From the NCBI RefSeq assembly GCF_012163145.1, contig NZ_JAAVTX010000006.1:62001-126000 (forward strand): 64,000 nucleotides of DNA. The letters are read 5' to 3'. A program made the position numbers and the translations under genes. Below, one piece after another: positions 8,164-64,000 of this stretch. Every line of letters begins with the position of its first letter. Positions within the stretch are counted from its first letter, which is position 1. Below the pieces are notes generated by a model, which worked only from the letters and a program-made list of their open reading frames with translations, searched no databases and was not told where the DNA came from. This stretch comes from Falsiroseomonas frigidaquae. Lineage in GTDB: Bacteria > Pseudomonadota > Alphaproteobacteria > Acetobacterales > Acetobacteraceae.

Positions 8164-11100
8164 ACGCCCCGATCACCACGCTGCGTGCCCAGGACGGGCT
8201 GACCAGCGAAACCTCCCTGCGCGCGCCCGGATGGGCCGCCGGGATGCGGCTGGCGTTCCTGCACATTCCGAAGACCGCCGGCACCGCCTTCGGCGCGGCA
8301 TTGGCGCAGCGTTTCGCGGAACATGAGATCGCCAGTACGCTTCGCATGGCATTGACCAGCGGTGCGGCGGACCCGCTGCTGACGCAGGTGGTGCCGGCCT
8401 ATCGCGCGCTGGGTATCGGCAGCCATCTCGACCAGGACAAGCTCGATGCCATCGCCGCCGCCCTGCCGCCCGGCCAGCGGCTGTTCACTGTCACCGTGCT
8501 GCGGGAACCGCGGGAAAGGCTGATCAGCCAGTACCGCCATTGGCGCCGCAGCCTGGATTCCAGCATGGCGGACCTGCCGCAGGCGCACCGCGACGCCTTC
8601 CTCGCCGCCCGCAGCCTTACGCTCGGTGAGTTCCTGGAGGCGGCGATCCCCTTCGCCGAACCGCATTTCCGCAACGCCCAGGCCCGCATGCTGTGCGGCC
8701 ATGGCAGCAGCGAGATGATGGATGAGGCGACGCTGCTGCAGACGGCGCTGGCCAACCTGGCAAGCTACGACGTGGTCGCCACGACGGAGACCCTGGATGA
8801 CGGGATGGCCCGCATCGCCGAGGCCTTCGGCTGGTCGCCGCCGGATTCCGTCCGTCCGCTGAACGTCGCCCCCGGCGAACCGCTCGCCACGCTGGCGCCG
8901 GAGGTGGAGGCGCTGATCGAGGACCATATCCGCGTTGACCGGAAGCTGTGGGAGGCGGCACAGGAGATCATGGCCGCGCCGCCGGTGCCGCGCGCCGGAC
9001 GCAGCTACTACGGCCCATCCCCCGCGCTGGTCGCCACCCTGCTGGAAGGCGGCCGCACCCGCTTCGGCATGGAGGCCGCGCTGGATGGGGTGGGCTGGCA
9101 TGTGCGGGAAGGGGCGGGGGCGACGCTGTCCCGCTGGACCGGCCCTGGCCGCCGCGCCACCATCCGCCTGCGGGCGCCGCAGCTCCGGCAGCTGGAACTC
9201 GGCATAAGCCTGGTCTCGGTGCTGGATTGGGCGATGGTCGACCAGGTGGCGCTGACGCTGGATGGCGTGAAGCCCAGCGCCCCGCCGATGGTGGATCACG
9301 GCCAGGGTCAGCCGCTGCTGCGCGCGCGCTTCGACCTGCCGGATGCCGGCGACGGGCTGCGCGACCTGGTGGTGGAGGTACCCTTCACCCGTTCGCACCA
9401 TGATGTGGACCCCGAGATCAACGACAAGCGCCAGAAGGGGCTGGCGATCGGTGAGATCACCCTGTCCGCGCTGCCCGAGGCCGCGAGCGGCCCGGCGACG
9501 CTGGGTGCGCTGTTCTGGCCGGGCGAAAGCTGGGCCGATGTGCCGCCGGTGGCGCTGATGGATCATGTGCCACACCACCCGCCGGAGCCATCCCTGCCGC
9601 CGGCCCACCGCAACCTGACGCTCGACCTGCCGATCCTGCGTGGTCTGCTGGAGCTGGTGCGCCCGGACCATGTCTGGGCCGCAGCCGGACGCAGCTTCCT
9701 CGAGGAGCTGGGGCGCGGCCAGCCGCTGGCACTGCCGGCGCCGGGCGGGCGGCTCGCCATGGTCGCCACCCTGTTCGAGATTCCGGGCCGCGGCGCGCCG
9801 ATGGCGGCGCTGGCCCGGCGCTTCCCGCAGGCGGTGCTGCTGCTGCACTGCGCCGAGGATTTCCGGCTGCGGGAGGTGCTGGCCAACCCGCTGCTGGCGC
9901 CGCATCTGCACCTGATCGGCTGCACCAACGGCATTCTCGTCGCCAATCTCGCGGCGATGCGCCTTGAGGGTGGGGCAGAACGGGTGGAAACCTTCATGCT
10001 GGTGCTGGAGCGCATCGCCACCACGATGCCGGAGAATCTGGCGACGCAGCTTCCCGATTTCGGCCCGGCCTATGTTCTGCAGCAGCTCGACGCGACCTTG
10101 AGCGGCCTTGAGGCGCTGCTGGAGGGCAGTGCCAGCCCACGGCAGAAGCTGGCGACGCTGATGCTGGAAGCGGCACCACCGCCGCCCCTGGCCGGTGGCA
10201 TGGAAGCCCGGGTCCGGCGAATGCTCGAACGGCAGGATACCCCTCTCAGCCTGGTGGATCCGGCGCTGACCGGCCGGCTGCTGGCGCTGGCCCAGCAGCT
10301 TGGCGCGGCCGAGGGGGCTCCGGCGCAATGGCAGGCGGCGGTGGTCGCCCATGAATGCGCCTTCCGCATCACCTCCCTGATCGCCGGCTGGGTCCGCTTC
10401 GACCTCGCGGCCAACCGCACCGCCGGGCTGGCGATGCGGCTGCGGCCGGAGGCGCCGCGGCCGCCGCTTTATCCCAAGCCGGCCAAGCCGTTCCGCGAAT
10501 ATATCGACTTCTACCGCGGTGAGGCCCGTGCCATGGCGGCGCAGAAGCCGGCGCCCGACCTGGTCACCCGGCTCGACGCCATGCGCGGCGGGCTGGACCA
10601 TGTGACGCGGCTGAACCAGGCGGCACGGGAGATCGAGCTTGCGTTGCGGCTGCTCGGCGACCGGCATCCGGGGGAGGAGATTCTCTGGGTGGATGCCGGC
10701 TGTTCCTATGGCGTCATCATGAACGCCGTGCAGCCGCCGCAGAACATCGCCGGGCGGTGCAGCTTCCTCGGCTTCGACTTCAACCCGCCGGCCATCGACA
10801 TCGCCCGCATCGTCGCCGGCAATCTCGGCAATGCCCATTGCCGGTTCGAGGTGGGGGATGTGGCGGAGGCGCAAAGCCTGGCAGCCGGGCGGCGGATCCA
10901 CCTGATCACCGCCTTCGAGGTGCTGGAACATTGCCCCGATCCGCTGGCGGTGCTGACGGATTACCGGGCGATGAACCCCGGCATGCTGGTGATCGGGTCT
11001 CCACTGGCCGAACAGCAGGCGATCTTCCCGGCGGAACAGCACATCTGGGCCTTCAACGCCCGCGGCTTCTCCGCCCTGGCGGAAGCCGCCGGGTTCAGCG

Positions 11101-50703: not shown

Positions 50704-50722
<19 letters not shown>

Positions 50723-53700
50723 GGCTTCACAGCCTCACGGGCGGACCCGCCCGGCTTCACCGCCTCGAACACCCGCAGCGGCAGGTCGGCGCCGGGGATC
50801 CACACCTCATGCTCGCGCAACGCGAAGCCTGCGGATTCGACGAACTCCGGCAGGTCGAGGCCGAAGTCGGTGAAGACCAGCGCGCCTTCCTGACGCACCG
50901 GGTCGCCATGATAGGTAGCCGGCAGCAGATGCTCGACGCCACCTGCGCCGATCCGGGCGCGCGTCACGCTGTGCCGCAGGTCGCGGTCCTGCGGCACGGT
51001 GAAGATATGGGCGCCGCCAGGGCGCAGCACGCGGAAGGTTTCCGCGAAGCCGCGGCGCGGATCCGGTACATGCTCCATCACATCCTGGCTGAGCAGGACG
51101 TCGAAGCTGGCATCCGCGAAGGTCAGCCGCGTCACATCCTCGCAGCGCACCCCATGTGGGCCGGGCTGGCCTGGCGGAATCCCGTCGAAATACTCGGAGG
51201 TGGAATAGCCGGGCCAGCCGCGCAGCGTGCCTTCAATTCCGCCAACGAAGCCCAACTCGTGCACCCGCAGCGCCGGCGCGGCGCGCAGCAGCTCCGTCAG
51301 CGATTCCTCCGCACCCTGCCCGAAGCGCTGCAGCAGCACCTGCGCTACCGCCTGGCTGCGGCCGAGCGCGTAGCAGCCAAGGCAGCGGATGGATTCGCGC
51401 AGTTCCGCACCCTCGATGGGTGCCAGCCGCGCGGAGCCGCAGATCGGGCAGCGGCGCGTGTCGAACACCGTGGCGGCGGCGCGCCGCCCGGCGCTGCGGG
51501 AAAATCGGCGGCGAACCAGTGCCGCGCCTGCCTCGGACAGCGCGGCGCAGCGATCGGCGTCGCGGAACAGCGCCAGCGCGGCGGCGGCCAGCCCGGCCGG
51601 GCTGTCCTCCACCAGCGCATCCTGCCCGGCCACCAGGTCGATCCCCTCCGCCCCCACGGCGGTGGTGACGACGGGCACGCCGTTCTGCAGCGCCTGCACG
51701 ACCTTGCCCTTGACCCCGGCACCATAGCGCAGCGGCGCCAGGTTCAGCCGCGCGGCCTCCAGATACGGCTCGACCTGCGGCACATGGCCAGTCACCACGA
51801 TGCGCGGCCCGGCGAGGGACTGCACCTCCGGCGGCGGGGCGTAGCCGACAAGCACCAGCCGCGCTTCCGGCTCCTCCTGCCAGACCGCGGGCATGATCTC
51901 GTTCGCCAGCAGCAGCGCGGCATCGACATTCGGCGTATGCGGGAAGCCGCCGACGAAGACCACGTCGCGGCGCGTCGCGAAATGTGCCGCGTCATGCGAA
52001 TGGATCTCGGCATCCTCGAAGAAATAGGGCGGGATCGCCACCACCTCCCGCCCCGGGACCAGGGCGCGGATGATGGCGGCCTCGGCCTCGCTCGGCGTCG
52101 TCACGCGGTCCACGGCACGGAAGATCGCGGTTTCCGTGGCTTCCATGCGGTCGGCCTCGGCGTGCAGCGCCGCATCGTCGCGCATTTCCGCCTCCCGCCG
52201 CATGCGCTGATGGTGCAGGTCGTGCGTGTAGTAGGCGAGCATGGCGCCGCTATGGGCGCGCACCGGACCGATCAGGCGCTGCGCCACCTCGGGCCGTGCC
52301 AGCCAAGCGGCGTGCAGGTGGCGGCCATGGGCGGCCAGCCAATCCTCCGGCGAGCGCGGCGCGCGCACCAGCTCGATGCCGCGGGTTTCCAGTGCCTCCG
52401 CCGCCGCGCCCTCGGCCACGCCATCCATCGGGGCGAAGACCACACGCCAGCCGGCGGTGGCCATCAGGTCCAGGTAGCGGAACATGGTGACGTCGCCGGC
52501 GTGGCGGTCCGGCCGCGGCACGGCGTTGTCCGCCACGAACAGCACCGGCCCCTCCCCCGCCGCATGGCGCAGCTCGAAGGCATCGCCCCGATCCCACGGG
52601 TGCTTGCGCAGCACGTCGGCGAAGCGGGCGACGAAGCGGGCATGGTTGGTGGCGGAAAGCCGGTCCCGCGCCTCCGCGCCGTAGGAGGCACTGCCGAGAT
52701 GCACGACCCGGCAGCGCGGCTCGTAGATCACCGACAGGCCACGCTCGCGGGCGCGGAAGGCGAGGTCGAATTCCTCGTAGAAGGCGGGGGCGTAGAGCGC
52801 ATCGAAGCCCTCCAGCGCGTCAAACACGGCGCGCGGCACCAGCAGGCAGGCGCCGGTCACGCAATCGACCGGGCGGCGGTAGGTATAGGCGCCATCCTCG
52901 GCCGAGGCGTTGCGGCCGATCGGGTAGCCCCAGCCATCGCCGAGGATGCGCCAGCCGGCATCCTGCACCGTGCCATCGCGGTTCAGCAGCATGCCGCCGA
53001 CCAGCCCCGCGCCCGGCAGCGTCTCCGCCACCTCGACCAGCGCCGCCAGCCAGCCGGGCTGCACGATGGTGTCGCTGTTCAGGAAGCACAGGTGCCGCCC
53101 GCGCGCCTTCGCGGCGCCCCGGTTGCAGCTGTGCAGGAAGCCGAGATTCTCCGCATTCGGCAGCCGCACCAGCCCGGGGCTTTCGGGGATGGCAGGCAGC
53201 ACCGGATTGGCCGGGTCGTCATCGACCAGCACCACCTCGAAGGACGGCCCGCCATCCCGCGTCGCGATCAGGGATCGCAGGCAGGCCTCCAGATCCTCCA
53301 GACCCCGATAGGCCGGGATGATGACGGAGACATCGGGCGCCTCCACCGCCGGGAAGGCGATGGGCAGGTCGCCATGCTGGCCGAGGAAGGCCTGGCGCAG
53401 GTCGCGTCGGGCTGGCGGCGGCGGGGTCATCGCCACGGATGGGGTGATGAACCGCGACGCGGGCGCCGCCGCGGGGGCCGAGGGTGGCGCCGTCGCGGGT
53501 TGCTGCGTGGTCTGCGGGGCCGGCTCGGCCGGCGGCGCGAGGGGGGTGGGCGCCTCGGGCGCGGCCAGGCGCAGCCTTGCCTGGTTCTGCCGCCATTGCT
53601 GGTAGCGGTGGCCGATCTGCAGAGTCGCCGTCCACCAGGCCACCTTCACGCCGCGGCTCAACCAGCGCGCCGCGCCGGGGTGGCGCCGGCCGAACCAGCG

Positions 53701-54966
53701 CATCGGACCCAGGGCGCGCCAGCCGGTGCTGGTGTGGATGTTGTGCAGGAGGGTCAGCAGATGCGCCTCATGCGACTCCGCACGTTCGCGTGCCTGCTGC
53801 ACGGCATGCAGCCGCGCATGCGCTTCAGCCTGCACGCGCGCCAGTTCCGCACGGGCGGAATCACGCTGCTGGCGCAGCGCGGCTTCCACGGCCGCGGCGC
53901 CGCCACGCCGTGCCTCGTCGCGTTCCATCACTGCGCGGCGGCTCGCGACTTCCGCAGCTTCCCGGGCGCTGCGCTCGGCGGCCAGGGCTTCGGCCAGGTC
54001 ACGCGCTTCCGCGGCCAGGCGTGTCGCTTCCTGCTGCGCCAGCCGGGCCTCGGGCAATGTCACGTCGCGTTCCTGACGCAGCGCCTGCGTCTCCGCCCGT
54101 GCCGCATCACGCTCCGCCACCACGGCTGCAAGCTGGGCATGCGCCTCGGGCAGCCGTGCCGCCGCCTCCATGACGTCATGCACCCGCCGCCGGTCGAGAT
54201 AGGCGGAGGAAGCCAGCACCGGCAGCAGCCCGTCCCCGGCCAGGCCGAGCAGGTAGTGCGGTCGCGCCAAGCCACTAGTCGCCTCGATGATGTCGTTCGA
54301 GCGACGCTCATAGCTGCGCCACTCGCCTTCCGGCGCACCGGCGACGACCGAACCGAGCACCGGTCGCTGGCGCAGCACCTGGCTGCTGGCGAAGTGGCGC
54401 TGCAGCAGCGTGCCGAACTCGCCTTCCGTCAGCTCCAGCACATGATACGGGTTGGGGTCGCTGCCGGCGGCGGAATAGACCATGCGTTCCGGCGTGCTCA
54501 CCAGGAACATGCCGCCGGGGCGCAGCACGCGGCGCACCTCGGACAGGAAGCGAACCTGGTCGGGCAGGTGTTCCAGCGTCTCGAAGGACACCACCAGGTC
54601 GATGCTGGCATCTTCCAGCGGCAGCGCCTGCGCATCGCCGCAAAGGAAGCGCAGCCTGTCATGCGCATATTGCGCCTGGGCATGCGCGACGGAGGCGGCG
54701 TCGATCTCCACCCCGACCACGCTGCGCGCCAGCCCGGCCAGAATCGCCGCGCCATAGCCCTCGCCGGAGGCCACGTCCAAGACATCAAGGCCATCGCACA
54801 AGTCGCGCGCGATGCAGTAGCGGTGAAGGTGCTCGAATTCGATCTGACCCTGGACCGAACTGGTCATTCGCTCCCCAGTGAAGGGCAGCGCGTCGGCAGG
54901 TTGCAGAAAGCGGAAATTTCCGTCGCTCCGCGTGTGTACTTGAATCACCGGCATCCTGTCCGACAC
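50704..54966 (-). CDS. Giant multidomain glycan enzyme: methyltransferase, coiled coil, GT2, GT4, methyltransferase
   Basis: A 1,420-residue single frame. Residues about 40-230 are a class I methyltransferase (VLDVASGEGYGAAILAG, VVSFETLEHLPDQVRFLSEV). About 275-410 is an Ala, Glu, Arg-rich coiled coil, then a Pro/Ala linker. About 545-800 is a GT2 domain (VSVIIPAYRGLEDLEACLRS, FLNSDTIVQPGWL, with EEFDLAFRARERG). About 840-1165 is GT4-like (VVFVGGFPHTPNVDAALLLA, NLAPLRYGAGVKGKVVQAL). About 1170-1400 has CPICGS and CLGC zinc-ribbon-like pairs, then a second methyltransferase (DVLLSQDVMEHVPDPRRGFA). GTG at 54966 has AAGAAGG upstream; ATG at 54954 is an alternative. It could build and cap a methylated glycan, with the coiled coil setting length; that is inference. 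Confidence 0.82.
50707..50766. repeat. 30-bp tandem duplication at the end of the giant glycan gene
   Basis: Two adjacent 30-bp units (50707-50736 and 50737-50766) are identical at 28 positions. Because 30 is a multiple of three, they encode a doubled C-terminal peptide, EAVKPGGSAR then EAVKPCGSAR. The start codon of the next glycosyltransferase lies in the left copy. Confidence 0.9.
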
Positions 54967-55124
54967 AATCCCGTTACCTTCTTCATCATCCCATAGGAAG
55001 ACTGGCTGGGTTGATAGGTTCCCCGCCCGTGCGCCGCCAGAGGTCTTTGCCGCCGGGCGCGCTTGGCCTAAGCCCTGCACGGCGCTTCCGGACGGTCCGG
55101 AGCGGCCTACGTGTGGATGGTGAG

Positions 55125-56597
55125 ATGGATAGCCGAGGCCCGGATACCGCCCCTTCGCTGCTGGTGGATCTGCGGAATTGCTACGAGGGATTTGCTGGTA
55201 TCCCACAGGAATTGCGGCTGCTTTTCGCCCATTTCACGGAGATGCCCTTCAGGTCCCTGGCGGGCCTCGCCTCCGGCATCCATCATCGCGCTCCACGCGA
55301 AAAGGCGGCGCGTTCGGCCTACGAGAACGTGATGCAGCAGACCCGCATGGTGATCGCGCAGGACAGCCGCCGGCACCCGCTGCCCCTGCCCTTGCGGCTG
55401 CTGCCGGGGCGAATCCGGAATCGCGTGCTCTATCCTTTTTCCGCTCTGGTCACGGCGCACCGTGCGGAAACGCTGGACCGGCCGATCGACCGCGAGATCT
55501 TCGAGGACTACCTCTGGACCAAGCTGTTCGACAAAACCCTGCCGCCCGACCGTCGCAACATCATCGGCAAGGCGCAGTTCTTCGCCACCGAGCTGGGGCA
55601 TGAGAATGCGCGCCATCTGGCGATGCTGCCGAAGCCCTTCGCCAAGAAGCTGGACAGCACCGGCTACGACCTGTTCTTCGCCGCCAGCGTCTCGCCCTAT
55701 GCCCTTCCGGCCAGCACCCACATGGTGGTGCGCTATTACGACGCGCTGCCGCTGACCAGCCCGCACACCATCGGCGACCCCTGGCCGCACGCCACCAGCC
55801 ATGGCCGCATGATGGCGCGCAACATGGCCGCCGGCGCCACCTTCGTCTGCGATTCGGAGCCGGTGCGGCAGGATGTGCTGAAGCTGTTCCCCGAGGCGGA
55901 GCACCGCGTGCTCACCATCCCCGCGCTGCTGTCCTCCGACTACCGGCCGGAGCCGATCTCCTGGCCGATGGTGCAGGAGATCCTGTCCCGCCGCGCCAGC
56001 CCGAAGACCGGCGGTGGCGTCAGCGCACCCGCCGAGGGCACCCGGCTGGTGATGGCGGTCTCCACGCTGGAGCCGCGCAAGAACTACATGAAGCTGTTCG
56101 AGGCCTTCGAGATGGCGCAGCAGATGAGCCAGGTGCCGATGCGCCTGGTCATCGTGGCGAATCCCGGCTGGCGCTCCGACGCCGAGATGGCGGCCCTGAA
56201 GCAGCTGGTAAAGCGCGGCGCGGCGCATCACCTCTCGGCCGTGCCGCTTCCGGAACTGCGGCGGCTGTATTCCGCCGCGCATTGCGTGGTGAGCCCGAGC
56301 CGGGCCGAGGGCTTCGACTATTCGGGCGTCGAATCCATGGCCTGCGGCACGCCGGTCATCGCCTCCGACATCCCGGTGCATCGCTGGGTCTATGGCGAGG
56401 CGGCCGAGTATTTCGACCCCTACAGCGCGGAGGCGATGGCGGAGCTGATCGCGCAATTCGCAGAACTGCCGGCGCAGGAAGGCTACCTGGCGCAGCTCGC
56501 CGCAACCGGTCTGCGCCAGGCGCAGCTCTACAGCCCGGCGACGCTGATGCCGCGCTGGGAGGAGCTGCTGATGAAGCTGGGGCGCGCGAAGCGCTGA
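55125..56597 (+). CDS. GT4-type glycosyltransferase
   Basis: A 490-residue glycosyltransferase. The donor domain is clear: VSTLEPRKNYMKLFEAFEMA, LVIVANPGWRSDAEM, and VSPSRAEGFDYSGVESMACG with the Glu pair, then TPVIASDIPVHRWVYGEAA. The N-terminal acceptor domain has RYYDALPLTSPHTIGDPWPH. The ATG at 55125 follows GGTGAG; GTG at 55113 is another option. It is divergent from the giant enzyme across 158 bp, which must hold both promoters. It converges on the GT2 gene. Substrate unknown. Confidence 0.87.
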   Translation: MDSRGPDTAPSLLVDLRNCYEGFAGIPQELRLLFAHFTEMPFRSLAGLASGIHHRAPREKAARSAYENVMQQTRMVIAQDSRRHPLPLPLRLLPGRIRNRVLYPFSALVTAHRAETLDRPIDREIFEDYLWTKLFDKTLPPDRRNIIGKAQFFATELGHENARHLAMLPKPFAKKLDSTGYDLFFAASVSPYALPASTHMVVRYYDALPLTSPHTIGDPWPHATSHGRMMARNMAAGATFVCDSEPVRQDVLKLFPEAEHRVLTIPALLSSDYRPEPISWPMVQEILSRRASPKTGGGVSAPAEGTRLVMAVSTLEPRKNYMKLFEAFEMAQQMSQVPMRLVIVANPGWRSDAEMAALKQLVKRGAAHHLSAVPLPELRRLYSAAHCVVSPSRAEGFDYSGVESMACGTPVIASDIPVHRWVYGEAAEYFDPYSAEAMAELIAQFAELPAQEGYLAQLAATGLRQAQLYSPATLMPRWEELLMKLGRAKR

Positions 56598-56622
56598 CTG
56601 GCGGCTACCGCCAGCTTCGCGC
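56584..56622. terminator. Compound hairpin at the convergent ends of two glycosyltransferase genes
   Basis: An inner 7-bp stem (56598-56604 with 56608-56614) is flanked by an outer 8-bp stem (56584-56591 with 56615-56622), with six unpaired bases on the left side. Both stop codons fall inside the structure, so it may terminate both transcripts. Confidence 0.5.
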
Positions 56623-58482
56623 CACCCGCGGCGCCGAGGCGAGGACGATGTCGTCATCCGTCGCCAGCAGGTTCGGATTGAGGAAGGGGTCGTGCTGCAT
56701 CGCCTCAGGCCAGCGCTGCATCACCCAACCCTGCTCGCGCCGGAAGCGCGCAATGCGCTCGGGCGAACCCGCATCGGCCCGCGTCGCGGATTCGAGGTGC
56801 AGCATTTCCGCATGCGGCGTGTAGAGCACCCGAAATCCCTCCGCGCGGGCGCGGATGCAGATCTCGATGTCGGACCATTCGAGCGCCAGATGCTCCGCCT
56901 CGAAGCCGCCCAGCGTGTTGAAGGCGGCGCGCGGCATGGCCATGCAGGCGCCGGTGACGGCGCCGACATCCCGCACCACCGCAAGCTGCGCCAGGTAGCC
57001 CGGTGCCGAGCCGGGGGCCAAGCGCTGGATATGCGTCGCCCGCCCCTCCGGCCCCAGCGCCACGCCGGCATGCTGCACGCGCCCGTCCGGGTAGAGCAGC
57101 TTGGCGCCGACCACGCCGATGCCTGGCCGCATCGCCTGCCCAACCAACTCGCCGAGCCAGCCGGGCTGCGTCACCAGCGTGTCGTTGTTGAGGAACAGCA
57201 GCACCTCGCCCTGCGCCTCCGCCGCCGCCTGGTTGTTGGCGGCGGACCAGTTGAACGGGCCGGGCCGGTGCAGGATGCGGATGCGCGGCTCGGTGCCCAG
57301 CTTCTCCAGCAGCGCCAGTGCTTCAGGCTCCGTGCTGCCGGTATCAACCAGCAGGATCTCCAGCGCCTGGTGCTCCGTGCGGTGCAGGATGCCCTCGATG
57401 CAGGGGCCGAGCAGGTCGGCGCGGTCGCGCGTCGGGATGATGATGGAGACCATCGGCTGCCGGTCCCACACCGCTGGCGCGCTACGCGGCTCGATCGGCG
57501 GCGGCGCGGCGCGGTGCAGCAGCACGGCAGGGATGTGGCGCACCGCCTGCGGCCGCACCAGTGCGACCTGGCGCAGCATTTCCAGCATCGCGCCCGCCTG
57601 CGCGATGGCGCTGCGGCGGAGGAAGGCGGGGCGGCCCACTGAATCGGAAGCCCGCAGCGGCTCCGGGCTCCAGCCCGGCTTGAAGCGTGGCGCCATGCGC
57701 TGGCCGCCGGGGGCGATGGCATCCTCATCGGCGAAGACCATGTCCAGATCCGGCGCCGCCCGCAGCGCCAGCACGAGCTCGGCCAGCGCCTCCGGCGCCA
57801 GCGCGTCGCCCGGCTCCAGCACGGTCAGGAACTCGCCCTCCGCGGCGGCGACGGCCTGTGCCAGGGTCTCCCCCACCGGCTCGACCGGCGCCATGCCGGC
57901 GCGCCGCAGCGCATCCCGCAGCGGCGCCACGCGGCCCGGCGGCGCGGCGAGGCAGAGCTGCCACTTGTCGTGAATTTGGGCGCGCAGCGCGCGGATGCTG
58001 TGCAGCACCGGCAGCACCGGGCCTTCATCCAGCGGCAGGCAGACGGAGACCAGCGGCCCCTGCCCGTCCAGCCTGGCCCGGATGGCCGCCTCATCATCGG
58101 GCGAAAGGGTGCCGTAGGCCTCGATCCAGAGGCGGTAGGCGGTGGCATCGGCCAGGCTGGCGCCCTCCGGGAAGATGCGGGCAAAGAGGGGCGCGGCGTC
58201 CGCATCCGCCTCCCGCGCCGCCTGCTCGGCCAGCGATGCGGCCGTGCTGCCAAGCTCCGCCGCGTCGGGCGCACGGCGGCGATACTCCTCGGAGGCCAGG
58301 ATGCCTTGTGCCGCCTGTTCCCACGCCATGCCCCGCCGCAGCGCCGCCACCAGCCCTGCCAGGCCCGCCGCATCCGGCGCGCGACCCAGCCCGAGCCGGT
58401 AGAGCGCGAAGATGCGTGGCGCCAGGCGGCGGGCTTCCTCGATCGATGCGAAGGGACCCGGGCCGGATGTGGTGGAGGACAT
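56605..58482 (-). CDS. GT2-family glycosyltransferase with N-terminal DUF4214-like domain
   Basis: A 625-residue protein. Residues about 15-75 resemble DUF4214 (IFALYRLGLGRAPDAAGLAG, then QGILASEEYRRR), a helical module more often found in secreted or adhesin-like proteins. A degenerate first GT-A-like region follows (about 150-300, DMVFADEDAIAPGG), then a full GT2 domain (about 345-590): MVSIIIPTRDRADLLGPCIE, LFLNNDTLVTQPGWL, GAVTGACMAMPRAAF and WSDIEICIRARAEGF. It probably adds sugars in the cytoplasm. Start MSSTTSGP at 58482 is chosen because the upstream 29 codons lack family character. Confidence 0.85.
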   Translation of the reverse strand: MSSTTSGPGPFASIEEARRLAPRIFALYRLGLGRAPDAAGLAGLVAALRRGMAWEQAAQGILASEEYRRRAPDAAELGSTAASLAEQAAREADADAAPLFARIFPEGASLADATAYRLWIEAYGTLSPDDEAAIRARLDGQGPLVSVCLPLDEGPVLPVLHSIRALRAQIHDKWQLCLAAPPGRVAPLRDALRRAGMAPVEPVGETLAQAVAAAEGEFLTVLEPGDALAPEALAELVLALRAAPDLDMVFADEDAIAPGGQRMAPRFKPGWSPEPLRASDSVGRPAFLRRSAIAQAGAMLEMLRQVALVRPQAVRHIPAVLLHRAAPPPIEPRSAPAVWDRQPMVSIIIPTRDRADLLGPCIEGILHRTEHQALEILLVDTGSTEPEALALLEKLGTEPRIRILHRPGPFNWSAANNQAAAEAQGEVLLFLNNDTLVTQPGWLGELVGQAMRPGIGVVGAKLLYPDGRVQHAGVALGPEGRATHIQRLAPGSAPGYLAQLAVVRDVGAVTGACMAMPRAAFNTLGGFEAEHLALEWSDIEICIRARAEGFRVLYTPHAEMLHLESATRADAGSPERIARFRREQGWVMQRWPEAMQHDPFLNPNLLATDDDIVLASAPRVARSWR

Positions 58483-58766
58483 GGGAAGCAGGCGCCTTGC
58501 AGTCACGCGGCCTGAGGTAGCGGCGCGCGCGGCCCCGCGGCAAGCATCGGCCGGCGTGCCTTCAATCACGCTGTGCTTGCCACGGGCGGTTTGTTTTGCG
58601 GAACGTGCAATTCCGCCCTCGGCCGGTCCCTCACTTCGTCGCGATCGACTTGCGCTGCCTCGGCAAGGACACGCCGCGTTGCGACAGACGTGATACGCGG
58701 CATTCGCGGGACCAGCCTGTGGGACGCCCTGGCTCGCGCCGCATCAAGTCAGCCGAGGTAAAGCCA

Positions 58767-59750
58767 TTGAACGTCGAAGCCGAGGATCTGGTCGAGTTCG
58801 GCCGCAGGGTCACCCTGCCCTTCAATGGGCGGGAGGTGGCGGCGCGGGCGGACCGGGCCAGCGGCTACGTGTTCTTCGACCCGCCGCCGCCGGAGGAGTT
58901 GGAAGCCTACTACCTGCACACCTACCAGAAGGCCTCCACCGTCTACTACACGGTGGAAACCGACTACGAGGCGGACAAGAACCGCTACCACGCCGACCGC
59001 ATCCTGGAAGGCGTGCGCCACTTCGCCGGCCGCATGCCGCAGAACAGCGTGGAACTCGGCTGCGCCTATGGCGGGCTGGTGCATGACATGGCCGGCCGTG
59101 GCATCGCCGCGCGCGGCTTCGACATCAACGCCGGCGCCGTGGCCGAGGGCCGCAGCGTGAAGGGCAACATGGCGCTGGAGGCGGCGGACAACGTCACGGC
59201 GCTCGGCCGGCTGACGGCGCCGGTGGATCTGATCTACTCGCTGCATGTGCTGGAACACGACCCGAAGCTGGTGCAGGTGCTGCGCCTGGCACGGCAGGCG
59301 CTGTCCGCCGATGGGCTTCTCTTCGTCGCGGTGCCGAATGCGATGTATGCCGGTTCCGTGCTGCGCGGCTTCAAGGCGAACCCCTGGGTCAACTACCCGC
59401 AGCACCTGCACATGCTGTCCCCCGGCGTGATTCCGGCGCTGTGCGAGGCGACGGGCTTCGTGCCGCTGGCCTGGAGCACCGGCCTGGTGTTCGAGACCGA
59501 TGACAGCCTGGCGCGGATGCTCAGCCCCGAAGGCCTCGCCCATGGTGCGCCGGAACGCCTGGCGCTGATGATGAGCCAGTCCGGCTTCGGCATGGAGCTG
59601 AACATGCTGCTGGCGCCGCAGCGCAGCCGCATCGCCACGCGCCACGCCGCGGAGGTTGGCGTGCAACTGGCGGCGCTGGAGGCGCAGCGGCGGCGGGAGG
59701 TGGCGATCCGCGGCTGGCTGTGCGATTCCGCCGGCCCGCCGGCTGTGTGA
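58767..59750 (+). CDS. Class I SAM-dependent methyltransferase
   Basis: A 327-residue methyltransferase. Motif I is NSVELGCAYGGLVHDMAGRG, the acidic residue GFDINAGAVAEG follows, and DLIYSLHVLEHDPKLVQVLR is the post-motif. A C-terminal domain of about 100 residues includes YPQHLHMLSPGVIPALCEAT. TTG at 58767 is preceded by GAGG at 8-bp spacing, which decides the start. The last codons and stop belong to a 24-bp tandem repeat. The 284-bp gap upstream (58483-58766) shows no gene and should contain divergent promoters. The likely target is a glycan, by neighbourhood. Confidence 0.87.
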   Translation: MNVEAEDLVEFGRRVTLPFNGREVAARADRASGYVFFDPPPPEELEAYYLHTYQKASTVYYTVETDYEADKNRYHADRILEGVRHFAGRMPQNSVELGCAYGGLVHDMAGRGIAARGFDINAGAVAEGRSVKGNMALEAADNVTALGRLTAPVDLIYSLHVLEHDPKLVQVLRLARQALSADGLLFVAVPNAMYAGSVLRGFKANPWVNYPQHLHMLSPGVIPALCEATGFVPLAWSTGLVFETDDSLARMLSPEGLAHGAPERLALMMSQSGFGMELNMLLAPQRSRIATRHAAEVGVQLAALEAQRRREVAIRGWLCDSAGPPAV

Positions 59751-59822: not shown

Positions 59823-59874
59823 TGACGCAGGCCGCCTGCTTCGCGACCGTTCGCCGGCAATGAAGGAGGCGACG

Positions 59875-60576
59875 ATGACCGAGGAACTGGAGAAGCTGGC
59901 GAAATGGCGCGGCTTCGTGCCGGATGAGGAGCTGGAGACCTACCGCAAGGGCGGCTTCGCGCGCCGCATCGGCATCGGCCGCCGCCCGGCGCTGCTGAAC
60001 ATCGACACCACCTACATGTTCGTCGATCCCGCCTATTCCCAATGCGGGCGGGAAGATCCGGCGCTGATCGCGGCGCTGACGCGGCTGACCGCGCTGTTCC
60101 GGCGCCTCGACCTGCCGATCTACTACAGCCGCCGCGACGACCGCACGCATCCCAGCTATCGCGGCATCTGGAACCTGAAGCTCGGCACGGCGAACGACTA
60201 CCAGTACAGCCGCGATCCGCGGGCCGATGAATGGCCGGAAGCCTATGCCCCGCGTGAGCAGGACCGTGTGGTGATGAAGAACAAGCCCTCCTGCTTCTTC
60301 GCGACGCCGCTGGAGGCCTTCCTGCGCTATGACGAGGTGGATACCGTGATCATCTGCGGCGTCTCCACCAGCGGCTGCGTGCGGGCCGGCGCGATGGACG
60401 CCTTCTCCCACAATTTCCGCACCGTGCTGGTGGAGCAGGCCTGCGGCGACCGCAGCCCCTCCGCCCATCGCGCCAACCTGTTCGACCTGGACATGAAGTT
60501 CGCCGATGTCGAAAGCCTGGACTATATCGAGCGGGAATTGAACGCGCGCTTCGGCGTGGCGCGCGCGGCGGAGTGA
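59875..60576 (+). CDS. Isochorismatase-family (cysteine) hydrolase
   Basis: A 233-residue hydrolase of the N-carbamoylsarcosine amidase/isochorismatase fold. The catalytic triad is visible: Asp in PALLNIDTTYMFVDP, Lys in VVMKNKPSCFFATPL, and Cys in VIICGVSTSGCVRAGAMDAF, where the cis-peptide precedes the Cys region. A CSHase or maleamate amidohydrolase type of activity is likely, not isochorismatase in the strict sense. AAGGAGG six bases upstream fixes the ATG at 59875. Its stop abuts the convergent small gene with no gap. Confidence 0.88.
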   Translation: MTEELEKLAKWRGFVPDEELETYRKGGFARRIGIGRRPALLNIDTTYMFVDPAYSQCGREDPALIAALTRLTALFRRLDLPIYYSRRDDRTHPSYRGIWNLKLGTANDYQYSRDPRADEWPEAYAPREQDRVVMKNKPSCFFATPLEAFLRYDEVDTVIICGVSTSGCVRAGAMDAFSHNFRTVLVEQACGDRSPSAHRANLFDLDMKFADVESLDYIERELNARFGVARAAE

Positions 60577-60920: not shown

Positions 60921-61916
60921 TCAGATGCGCGTGACCCCGATCATGCCATCCCGCGTCACCAGCGACGTCAGCCTGTCCGCGTCCCAGCCTTCCGTGCCGG
61001 CGGGTCGCTTCGGCACCACCAGGTAGCGCAGCTCCGCATTGCTGTCGTGCACGCGCAGTTCCACGCCCGGCGGCAGCATCGTGCCGAATTCGGCGAGGAT
61101 GCCGCGCGGGTCGCGCACCGCGCGGGCTCGATAGGCGCGGCTCTTGTACCAGGCGGGCGGGCGGCCGAGGATGCTGCGCGGGTAGCAGGAACACAGCGTG
61201 CAGACCACGAGGTGATGCCGCGTCTCCGTGTTGAACAGCGCGGCGAGCTTGGTGCCCGCCGCATCCAGCCCGAGTTCCGCCGCAGCCGCCACCGCGTCAT
61301 CCGCCAGCCGTTGCGCGAAATCCGCATCGGTCCAGGCACGAACGACGATGGCAGCGCCGTTGTGCGGGCCGCGCGCATCCATCCGCGCGATCTCCTCCCG
61401 GATCTCGGCCGCCGTCAGCACGCCCTTTGCCAGCAGCAGGTTCCGCATCGCCACGCCGCGCAGGCGCAGCGGGGAAAGCCGCTCCTCCGCCGCGTCATGG
61501 TCTTCCTGGTAGGGGTGGTGCTCGTGGTCATGGTCGTGATGGTCGTGATCGTGGCCGTGGTCGTCGTGATGGTTGTGGTGGTCTTCCACCACATCGAGGC
61601 CGGCGGCGCGCAGCCGCTGTTCCTCCGCCAGCACCTCGGCTTCGGTCACGATGCCCTTCTCGATCAGCAGGCTTGAGAAGGCGAGAATCCAGCGTTCGTA
61701 GTACGGCATCGCCCAGTAGGTCGCGGAATCCAGCTGTTCCTGTACGCGGCGGCTTTCATCCGTGGTGAAGATCCGCCGCTTGGCATCGGACAGCAGCATG
61801 CGGATCGCATCCGCCTCCTTCTCCCAATGCGCCGCCTCATGTTCCGCCCGCTGCACGGGGCCATCGAAGCGGCCGCCGGCATCGTGCGGCGGATGGTCGT
61901 GGGGCAGGTCGTCCAT
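60921..61916 (-). CDS. Nitrile hydratase/thiocyanate hydrolase-like fusion: beta-N-type region, His-rich linker, alpha-type subunit
   Basis: A 331-residue single frame. Residues about 5-105 resemble the helical N-terminal part of nitrile hydratase beta (HDAGGRFDGP, AHWEKEADAI, YYERWILAFSSLLIEKGIVT). Residues 112-141 form a linker with 14 His among 30 residues. Residues about 150-331 are the alpha (or thiocyanate hydrolase gamma) subunit, with the metal-binding VVCTLCSCYPRSILG: Cys239, Cys242 and Cys244, with Thr-Leu between the first two as in cobalt enzymes. It then reads PPAWYKSRAYRARAV. The SH3-like C-terminal half of beta is absent. GGGAG lies 7 bp before the ATG. Hydration of a nitrile-like or thiocyanate substrate is inferred; a partner subunit would be needed. 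Confidence 0.8.
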   Translation of the reverse strand: MDDLPHDHPPHDAGGRFDGPVQRAEHEAAHWEKEADAIRMLLSDAKRRIFTTDESRRVQEQLDSATYWAMPYYERWILAFSSLLIEKGIVTEAEVLAEEQRLRAAGLDVVEDHHNHHDDHGHDHDHHDHDHEHHPYQEDHDAAEERLSPLRLRGVAMRNLLLAKGVLTAAEIREEIARMDARGPHNGAAIVVRAWTDADFAQRLADDAVAAAAELGLDAAGTKLAALFNTETRHHLVVCTLCSCYPRSILGRPPAWYKSRAYRARAVRDPRGILAEFGTMLPPGVELRVHDSNAELRYLVVPKRPAGTEGWDADRLTSLVTRDGMIGVTRI

Positions 61917-62032
61917 GGCTTTTCTCCCGGCATGCGGCGTGCAGGCTAACCATGCAGTGGCGCGGCTGAAAGCCTCGACAGCGCGGCGCGTCCGGGCGAA
62001 GGTCAGGACAATCAACAAGGGAGACACGTTGC

Positions 62033-63028
62033 ATGACGAGCCATTCCGCGCTGTTCGGGCGCCGCATCCTGCTGGCCGCCGCCAGCGCCGCCCTGGCGGC
62101 ACCCGCGCTCGCGCAATCCTGGCCGAGCCGCGACCTGCGGATGATCGTACCCTTCCCGCCCGGCGGCACCACGGATGTTGTGGCGCGCCTGATCGCGATG
62201 GCGATGCGGGACAAGCTCGGACGCGCCGTGGTGGTGGAGAACCAGCCCGGCGCCGGCAGCACCACCGCCGCCGGCCGCTTCGCGCGCGAAGGCGACGACC
62301 ATGCGATGTTCGTCTCGCAGATCGCGTCCCACGGCATCGCGCCGGCGCTGTACCGCAACCTCACCTACAATCCGCAGGATGATTTCAAGGCGCTGACACT
62401 GATGGTGACGGTGCCGAATGTCTGGGTCGCCAATCCCGGCAAGGTGCCCGGCGGCGATGTGCGGGCGCTGCTGCGCGACGCCAAGGCGCGGCCCGGCATC
62501 CGCACCTTCGCCTCCGCCGGCAACGGCACCTCCACCCATCTGACCGGCGAATTGATCAACCAGCAGACCGGCGCGCGCTTCCAGCACGTGCCCTATCGCG
62601 GCGCCGGCCCCGGCATGGTCGCGGTGATGGGTGGCGAGGTCGATACCTTCATCGACAACCTGCCGACCGCCTTGCCGCAGATCCGCGCCGGCACCGTCAT
62701 TCCGCTGGCCGTCACAGCCCCCGCGCGGCTGCCGGGGCTGCCCGATGTACCCGCCCTGGCGGAGCTGGGTGCCGAGTTCAACCTGGAGGGCTTCGCCTCG
62801 GAGGCCTGGTTCGGCCTGCACACGCATCGCAGCGCGTCGGATGCGGTGGTGGCGCGCATGGGCGATGCCGCCCGCGCCGCGCTGTCCGACCCCTCGATCC
62901 AGGCGCAGCTGGCCGAGCGTGGCACCCAGCCCCGGCCCGTGCCGTCGGCGGAATATGCCGCGCTGGTGACGGCGGAACTGGCCCGCTGGCGCGAGGTGGT
63001 GCGGCAGGGCAACATCCTGGTGCAATAG
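62033..63028 (+). CDS. Bug-family (TctC-like) periplasmic substrate-binding protein
   Basis: A 331-residue extracytoplasmic receptor. The signal peptide carries an Arg pair (LFGRRILLAAASAALAAPAL) and ends near LAQ, consistent with Tat or Sec export. The mature protein shows the Bug family landmarks MIVPFPPGGTTDVVARLIA, VVVENQPGAGSTTAAGRF and FQHVPYRGAGPGMVAVMGGE. Bug proteins bind small carboxylates or amides and often work without adjacent TctAB membrane subunits, as here. It is divergent from the hydratase-like gene across 116 bp, which hints at a linked substrate. Confidence 0.93.
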   Translation: MTSHSALFGRRILLAAASAALAAPALAQSWPSRDLRMIVPFPPGGTTDVVARLIAMAMRDKLGRAVVVENQPGAGSTTAAGRFAREGDDHAMFVSQIASHGIAPALYRNLTYNPQDDFKALTLMVTVPNVWVANPGKVPGGDVRALLRDAKARPGIRTFASAGNGTSTHLTGELINQQTGARFQHVPYRGAGPGMVAVMGGEVDTFIDNLPTALPQIRAGTVIPLAVTAPARLPGLPDVPALAELGAEFNLEGFASEAWFGLHTHRSASDAVVARMGDAARAALSDPSIQAQLAERGTQPRPVPSAEYAALVTAELARWREVVRQGNILVQ

Positions 63029-63044
63029 CCAGCGGGACAACCCC

Positions 63045-63509
63045 TTGCCTGACCTCCCCTTACCGGACCTCATCGAAGACCTTCTCGGCCTGGCGCCGGA
63101 CAGCGCGATCGGCGCGCTGCGCCGGCAGCGCCCGGAAGCCCTGCGCCATGCCGAGGGCGCCTATCGCGAATTGCTGCTGCCCGCCGACCCCGGCGGGCTG
63201 ACCCTGGCCGAACGCGCGGCACTCGCCCGCCATGTGGCGGAGCGGGAGGGTGATGCGGCGCTCGCCGCGCATTTCGCCGGCCTAGCCCCGGCGCCGGAAG
63301 CCTCCCCCCGTCTGGTGGCGCTGCTGGCCTATGCGGAGAAGGTGGCGATGCAGCCGGAGGGCACGGCCAAGGCGGATATCGACGGGCTGGCGGCGCTCGG
63401 CCTGACCGCGCGCGATATCGTGGCGGCAACCCAACTCATCGCCTTCGTGCCCTACCAGGTCCGGCTGCTGGCCGGGCTGCGCGCCCTGATGCAGGAGAAG
63501 GCCGCATGA
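63045..63509 (+). CDS. CMD-domain protein lacking catalytic cysteines
   Basis: A 154-residue helical protein resembling the CMD domain family represented by Agrobacterium vitis Avi_7170. It is read from TTG at 63045. It has ARHVAEREGDAALAAHFAGL and ALLAYAEKVAMQPEGTAKAD, then LTARDIVAATQLIAFVPYQV, the carboxymuconolactone-decarboxylase-like helix pair, but no C-x-x-C. It overlaps the next gene by 4 bp (ATGA). The adjacent gene carries the catalytic cysteines, so the two probably act as a pair. Family name is from memory of the pattern. Confidence 0.75.
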   Translation: MPDLPLPDLIEDLLGLAPDSAIGALRRQRPEALRHAEGAYRELLLPADPGGLTLAERAALARHVAEREGDAALAAHFAGLAPAPEASPRLVALLAYAEKVAMQPEGTAKADIDGLAALGLTARDIVAATQLIAFVPYQVRLLAGLRALMQEKAA

Positions 63510-64000
63510 GCCGGTTCACCCTGAAGCCGGTCGGCTGGCGCCCGCGCCTCGCCCCCGTGAAGGCGGAGACGGCGACGCCGGAACAGCTGGCCGCGCTGGA
63601 TGCCTGCCCGCCGGCGGTGCGGCGCTCCACCTATTTCCTGACGCTGGCGCATGACCCGGGCTCGCTGGGTGAGCGCGGCGCGCTGTTCAACATCGTCATG
63701 TATGCCGAGGGCGGGCTGGACCGGGCGGACCGGGAATTGTCCACCGCCGTCGTCTCCATGGTGAATGGCTGCGTCTATTGCACCTCCGTCCACGCCAAGC
63801 GTTTTTCCGAATTGACGAACGACGAGCCGGCGATGCAGCGGCTGCTGGACGAAGGTTGGGAGGCGGAGCCGGATCCGCGCCGCAAGGCGATCGCCGACTT
63901 CACCGAGGCGCTGACCCGCGACCCCGGCGCGACCACCGCTCGGCACCTGGCACCGCTGCGCGCGGCGGGGCTGGATGACCTCGAGATCCTCGACCTCATC
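63506..64000 (+). CDS. Alkylhydroperoxidase-like CMD protein (partial, C-terminus off the right edge)
   Basis: 165 residues of a peroxidase-related protein. The catalytic C-x-x-C-x-x-x-H motif is intact in VNGCVYCTSVHAKRFSELT, as in AhpD-type enzymes. The N-terminus begins MSRFTLKPVGWRPRLAPV. It follows the Cys-less CMD protein with an ATGA overlap and fits the partner family (Avi_7169-like). Such pairs are often beside transport and catabolic genes. The end lies outside the window. Confidence 0.85.
   Translation, partial: MSRFTLKPVGWRPRLAPVKAETATPEQLAALDACPPAVRRSTYFLTLAHDPGSLGERGALFNIVMYAEGGLDRADRELSTAVVSMVNGCVYCTSVHAKRFSELTNDEPAMQRLLDEGWEAEPDPRRKAIADFTEALTRDPGATTARHLAPLRAAGLDDLEILDLI

Follow-up and report, generated by a model that had tools for sequence, protein, structure and literature searches.

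How might a nitrile hydratase (NHase) function when its alpha subunit is joined in one chain to only the N-terminal part of its beta subunit (beta-N), with the SH3-like C-terminal part (beta-C) encoded nowhere nearby? The question is raised by a gene at positions 60921..61916 on the minus strand of the 64,000-nucleotide stretch of DNA analysed here (the window), which spans G000:C16:62001-126000, G000 being the genome that contains it. NHases are industrial metalloenzymes in which the role of beta-C in maturation and catalysis is still being worked out.

Domain structure and active-site residues of the fusion

The gene is a single open reading frame of 331 residues from its ATG start codon. 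Pfam searches place a beta-N domain at residues 10-105 (61602..61889, minus strand; PF21006 NHase_beta_N, E 1.7e-19) and an alpha domain at residues 152-329 (60930..61463, minus strand; PF02979 NHase_alpha, E 2.5e-75), separated by a His/Asp-rich linker at residues 111-146 (61479..61586, minus strand) that contains 14 histidines by residue count. A sequence-only reading of the window had proposed a beta-N-like region in residues 1-110, fused through a 14-histidine linker to an alpha-type subunit; domains, fusion and histidine count are all as it described, and the architecture is confirmed. The metal-centre motif CTLCSC of cobalt-type alpha subunits occupies residues 239-244 (61185..61202, minus strand), and we take its metal role here to be the one established for NHases. 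A complete beta subunit is not encoded with this alpha, and PF02211 (NHase_beta_C) has no match in the fusion protein up to E 1. The best solved relatives of the alpha part are NHase alpha chains; for the beta-N part, the best PDB match is the thiocyanate hydrolase beta subunit, followed by NHase beta. The fusion falls below the cut-offs of both relevant NCBIfam models, scoring 236 bits against 249.85 for the equivalog TIGR01323 (NHase alpha) and, for its alpha part, 183.7 bits against 291.45 for TIGR03887 (thiocyanate hydrolase gamma subunit).

In the beta chain, R52 and R157 are described, in the part of a review cited here, as highly conserved and as bridging the oxidised cysteines of alpha (PMC7193024). 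In an alignment, counted by hand, Arg56 of the fusion (61749..61751, minus strand) pairs with residue 52 of beta from P. putida NHase, and this position is kept in all 29 fusions. A second hand count indicates that Arg30 of the beta-C encoded elsewhere in this genome should correspond to beta position 157, provided that the four-residue gap printed for 1v29_B applies to the Pseudonocardia chain as well; it is kept in 27/27 beta-C genes examined. By this R52/R157 correspondence, the metal centre and the first arginine would lie in the fusion and the second arginine in beta-C.

Several known systems resemble parts of this arrangement. As in the eukaryotic fusions of the Monosiga brevicollis type, beta precedes alpha in one open frame, and as in those of the opisthokonts, a His-rich stretch lies between them (PMC2603476; PMC3323583; both sources in part). 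The likeness to Monosiga suggested by the sequence-only reading therefore holds for domain order and for the His-rich stretch (PMC2603476, in part). However, the cited parts of these reports describe both subunits of the eukaryotic fusions as complete, beta-C included (PMC2603476; PMC3323583), whereas the protein described here has no PF02211 match. In thiocyanate hydrolase (PDB 2dd4), homologs of beta-N, beta-C, and alpha are three separate, unfused chains; here beta-N and alpha are joined and beta-C is encoded elsewhere. An engineered P. putida NHase fusion likewise places beta before alpha, but with a whole beta subunit, a dipeptide linker, and a need for the activator P14K, as far as the cited part of that report describes it (PMC4709657).

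A single beta-C gene elsewhere in the genome

The earlier observation that no beta-C is visible in the window is correct: tblastn with the genome's own beta-C found none beside the fusion across L005 (G000:C16:119001-139000), which includes flanks of ~3.9 kb and 15 kb around the gene, nor any near the fusions of loci L006-L014. No full beta gene adjoins the fusion. A search of the rest of the genome, which that reading had recommended, did reveal an SH3-like beta-C: a genome-wide profile search returned one PF02211 match, on contig C12 rather than the fusion contig. Of the genome's two alpha domains, the first belongs to the fusion and the second adjoins this beta-C. The C12 locus (L004) is a three-gene set with the order betaN (8812-9132), betaC (9129-9428), and alpha (9428-10009), and so has all three components in one operon in the manner of Streptomyces canus, which the fusion locus does not. 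In S. canus, the anhD-anhE-anhA genes encode beta-N, beta-C, and alpha, respectively, in the same order as the three-gene sets found here, and the cited part of the report describes no activator gene; this system differs from the fusion in that beta-C lies within the operon and nothing is fused (PMC7329996, in part).

Exactly one PF02211 match is present in all 26 genomes with a fusion (the window's own genome, 20 other members of its family, and G398, G399, G424, G555, and G652), and none adjoins the fusion. In 25 of the 26 this beta-C lies inside a betaN-betaC-alpha set, although in G424 the contig ends inside the alpha of that set; the exception is G045. Co-occurrence within the genus says little, because each of its five fusion-free genomes (of 16) also retains one beta-C and a three-gene set. 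Since the fusion genomes are related, the 26 cases do not represent 26 independent events; the independent weight comes from two fusion origins and one gene loss (in G045).

Gene counts were also compared across a class sample of 385 genomes (alpha, PF02979 E<=1e-25; beta-C, PF02211 E<=1e-3). Either gene was present in 143, with equal numbers of alpha and beta-C in 127, an excess of beta-C in 10, and an excess of alpha in six. Five of these six (G000, G424, G555, G652, and G607) are genomes with known beta-C-less loci, a tally that concerns genomes outside the equal-count group. The sixth, G708 (79% complete), has one weaker alpha match (E 2.5e-34) and no beta-C, and is the sole case of alpha without beta-C in the sample. 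Beta-C exceeds alpha in G584, G593, G657, G677, G685, G709, G754, G771, G522, and G705.

Distribution and phylogeny of the fusion

Among 398 genomes of the window's family, 231 match the fusion protein somewhere and at least 21, its own included, carry the fusion, a lower bound as at most five candidates were scored per genome; in one of the genomes (G332) the fusion is cut by a contig end. A search of all 16 genomes of the genus added two more (G398 and G399), bringing the genus to 11 of 16. The total is 26 fusion genomes, 23 in this family and three in another alphaproteobacterial family (f26), from searches that covered one genome per species, some of these genomes being incomplete. The same architecture thus occurs in 22 further genomes of the window's family, at 93% to 66% identity. 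The f26 genomes, drawn from the class sample at E<=1e-60, hold five betaN-linker-alpha fusions: two in G424, two in G555, and one in G652 (86, 95, and 63% complete, respectively, with 7% contamination in G555). No bacterial betaN-alpha fusion was recognised in searches of the open-access PMC literature, and the cited part of a 2012 survey states that prokaryote data contained no genes fusing beta to alpha (PMC3323583). The genes described here establish betaN-alpha fusions in bacteria.

In a tree of 73 alpha domains, which also includes the Rubritepida MAG locus L014 from outside the 26-genome beta-C count, two changes are needed to account for the fusions, and strongly supported branches make both unavoidable; one shared origin is accordingly unsupported. 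Support is 87/92 for the family's fusion clade and 99/98 for the f26 clade. Placements within the tree are unsure, because the program warned of long branches and because of the 87/92 support of the family clade. The three-gene sets that accompany the family's fusions in their genomes belong to two distinct groups, so no fixed partner was inherited with them.

An unfused betaN-alpha pair with no beta-C between the two genes occurs in G607 (L121 7524-8495), which has a three-gene set elsewhere and, like the fusion genomes, exactly one PF02211 match. This pair falls among the three-gene alphas on the tree, and has the appearance of a pre-fusion stage in a third lineage.

An orphan beta-C gene in G045

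G045 is a single contig of 3.37 Mb, 98% complete. Its fusion is the only match to the fusion query P0001 (17/17 candidates scored) and the only PF21006 match in the genome. Its beta-C gene (L076 9756-10061, GTG start) has no betaN or alpha in the surrounding 3.3 kb (L061). In G125 and G176 the same stretch contains an amidase, betaN, betaC, alpha, and an ABC substrate-binding protein. Alignment of G045 with G125 gives ~81% identity in both flanks and 79.6% across beta-C; all that is left of betaN is a weak 96-base match at its start, and alpha is reduced to approximately its last 120 bases. Neither this orphan state nor the single beta-C of the window's own genome was noticed in the sequence-only reading, because both lie outside the window.

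The G045 beta-C has an open reading frame, gives a PF02211 match at E 6e-18, and retains the HxRTPxYxRG motif. In the comparison of G045 with G125, beta-C has a pairwise dN/dS of 0.19, the amidase of 0.20, and the transporter protein of 0.13. On the G045 branch, which also spans time before the gene loss, the value for beta-C is 0.33 (bootstrap 0.15-0.80; >=1 in 1.6% of 500), as compared with 0.24 for the amidase, 0.17 for the transporter protein, and 0.21 for the fusion. These values indicate purifying selection on the orphan beta-C, which may have become relaxed; it may also be that the loss is recent and the gene a leftover. The G045 fusion (L038 / L077 9402-10496) has CMLCSC as its metal motif in place of CTLCSC, and is the one exception among 29 fusions examined, the other 28 having CTLCSC or CSLCSC.

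Gene neighbourhood of the fusion

The fusion is followed by a convergent isochorismatase-family hydrolase gene (59860..60576, plus strand; PF00857, E 2.9e-29) and preceded by a divergent gene for a TctC-type solute receptor (62033..63028, plus strand; PF03401). No sigma-70-like site was found in the intervening gap (61917..62032), and scans for promoters, composition, and tRNAs added nothing. In many relatives a TctC cluster adjoins the fusion. In a survey of 24 relatives' fusion loci, at 7 of which the rough gene caller overlooked the fusion, an isochorismatase cluster occurred at 14 loci and a PF01425 amidase cluster at eight; in G045, the end of the fusion and an amidase gene share 4 bases. 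Judged by neighbourhood, the TctC and isochorismatase genes may be functionally tied to the fusion, and the setting would fit breakdown of a nitrile to an amide and then an acid.

In some relatives (L086, L088, and L090) a gene resembling Amdase/Asp-Glu racemase (PF17645) adjoins the fusion and hints at a different substrate pathway. Two adjacent genes lie near the TctC gene at 63045-64000 of the window, the second of which (from 63506) matches the carboxymuconolactone decarboxylase family. The large ORFs at 50704-59750 resemble, by eye, a glycosyltransferase and methyltransferase cluster.

Possible roles of a distant beta-C

The fusion is probably an NHase core completed in trans by an SH3-like beta-C, which brings the second conserved active-site arginine. 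Under this reading it would be the catalytic core of a cobalt-type enzyme, its CTLCSC alpha tied to the beta-N that gives Arg56. An ancestor would have lost its beta-C gene, the middle member of the related three-gene sets; with this gene gone, betaN would run into the His-rich N-tail of alpha, which may have become the linker. The only beta-C gene of the genome would supply the SH3-like domain and Arg30 in trans, and beta-C would join the fusion and be required for its activity. Two or three NHase cores would in that case share one beta-C in 25/26 fusion genomes. The substrate would presumably be a nitrile, used in the local catabolic cluster.

Supply in trans is favoured by the single beta-C of every fusion genome, its persistence as an orphan in G045, the two origins, the conservation of both arginines, and the excess of alpha over beta-C in all five genomes with known beta-C-less loci (one further genome shares this excess). 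By analogy, it is also consistent with S. canus, in which the betaN and alpha pair took up cobalt but left the tested substrate unconverted; the cited part of the study reports a need for both beta pieces (PMC7329996). Against it, three-gene sets are common in fusion-free relatives, such that co-occurrence by itself carries little weight; no fixed partner was inherited, the G045 beta-C is maybe a leftover, and the G045 fusion has CMLCSC.

A broader form of the proposal has about an even chance of being right: that one SH3-like beta-C is a shared, exchangeable part completing two or three NHase cores per cell, that cores without a beta-C of their own gave rise to fusions at least twice, and that one lineage then lost the other donor pieces and kept the shared part. 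If beta-C is indeed supplied in trans, the enzyme contains a component that is shared and exchangeable. A natural betaN-alpha core with its beta-C encoded elsewhere, in two lineages and the stripped G045, makes both the need for beta-C and its sharing directly testable.

Ranked second, and distinctly less probable, is that betaN-alpha alone is an active hydratase and that the beta-C gene serves only the other enzyme. The retained metal motif and Arg56 position agree with this, as does a neighbourhood of its own in which amidase or isochorismatase genes are frequent; activity has been reported for alpha or alpha-activator complexes, and the toyocamycin NHase alpha is reported to act alone. Yet local beta-C was apparently lost at two origins while one beta-C was kept in 26/26 genomes, G045 keeps beta-C alone, and the S. 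canus betaN and alpha pair failed on the substrate tested, as described in the cited part of the report (PMC7329996).

Unlikely, and ranked third, is that the fusion is no enzyme and acts as a cobalt-loading or maturation partner of the three-gene enzyme, as the holo betaN-alpha of S. canus does. Holo-AnhDA (betaN and alpha) activated apo-AnhDEA in that system (PMC7329996, in part), and activators are described as resembling beta (PMC4709657, in part). However, no other alpha was found in G045 for such a partner to serve, the three-gene set occurs without the fusion in five of the 16 genus genomes, a fused alpha would be unable to swap simply, and the neighbourhoods look catabolic. That the fusion is a decaying remnant of an NHase operon would account for the missing domain that other NHases need, but is very improbable given the 22 further genomes with the same architecture, the dN/dS of 0.18-0.30 between five fusions, and the retained motifs.

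Origin of the His-rich linker

The densest 22-residue stretch of the linker holds 13 histidines, a number equalled in none of 2000 shuffles of the fusion protein. Across 23 fusions, the histidine count of the linker ranges from 5 to 14. Unfused alpha subunits of related sets begin with tails such as MPHDGHDHHHDHQHDH; at least five histidines occur within the first 45 residues of 12 of 19 unfused alpha starts, and the remaining seven, which without exception come from g1 and g102 three-gene sets, carry at most one. The linker is therefore most simply explained as the old N-tail of alpha. The sequence-only reading had suggested that the linker may load or buffer metal instead of a separate activator; as similar tails are frequent on unfused alpha subunits, a novel metal loader or special activator substitute is unsupported. 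The cited part of one report describes activator-free maturation of a three-gene NHase (PMC7329996). A search for separate activators, limited to those recognisable by the PF21006 model, gave no match in 21 genomes beyond betaN itself, whether from the fusion or from the three-gene set. Linker deletions in the Monosiga NHase have reportedly been described.

A connection between the fusion and loss of the tail from the three-gene alpha of the genus was also considered and rejected, as the five fusion-free genomes lack the tail too. The alphas of the genus's three-gene sets (e.g., L004 9428-10009) have lost the His-rich N-tail whether or not a fusion is present.
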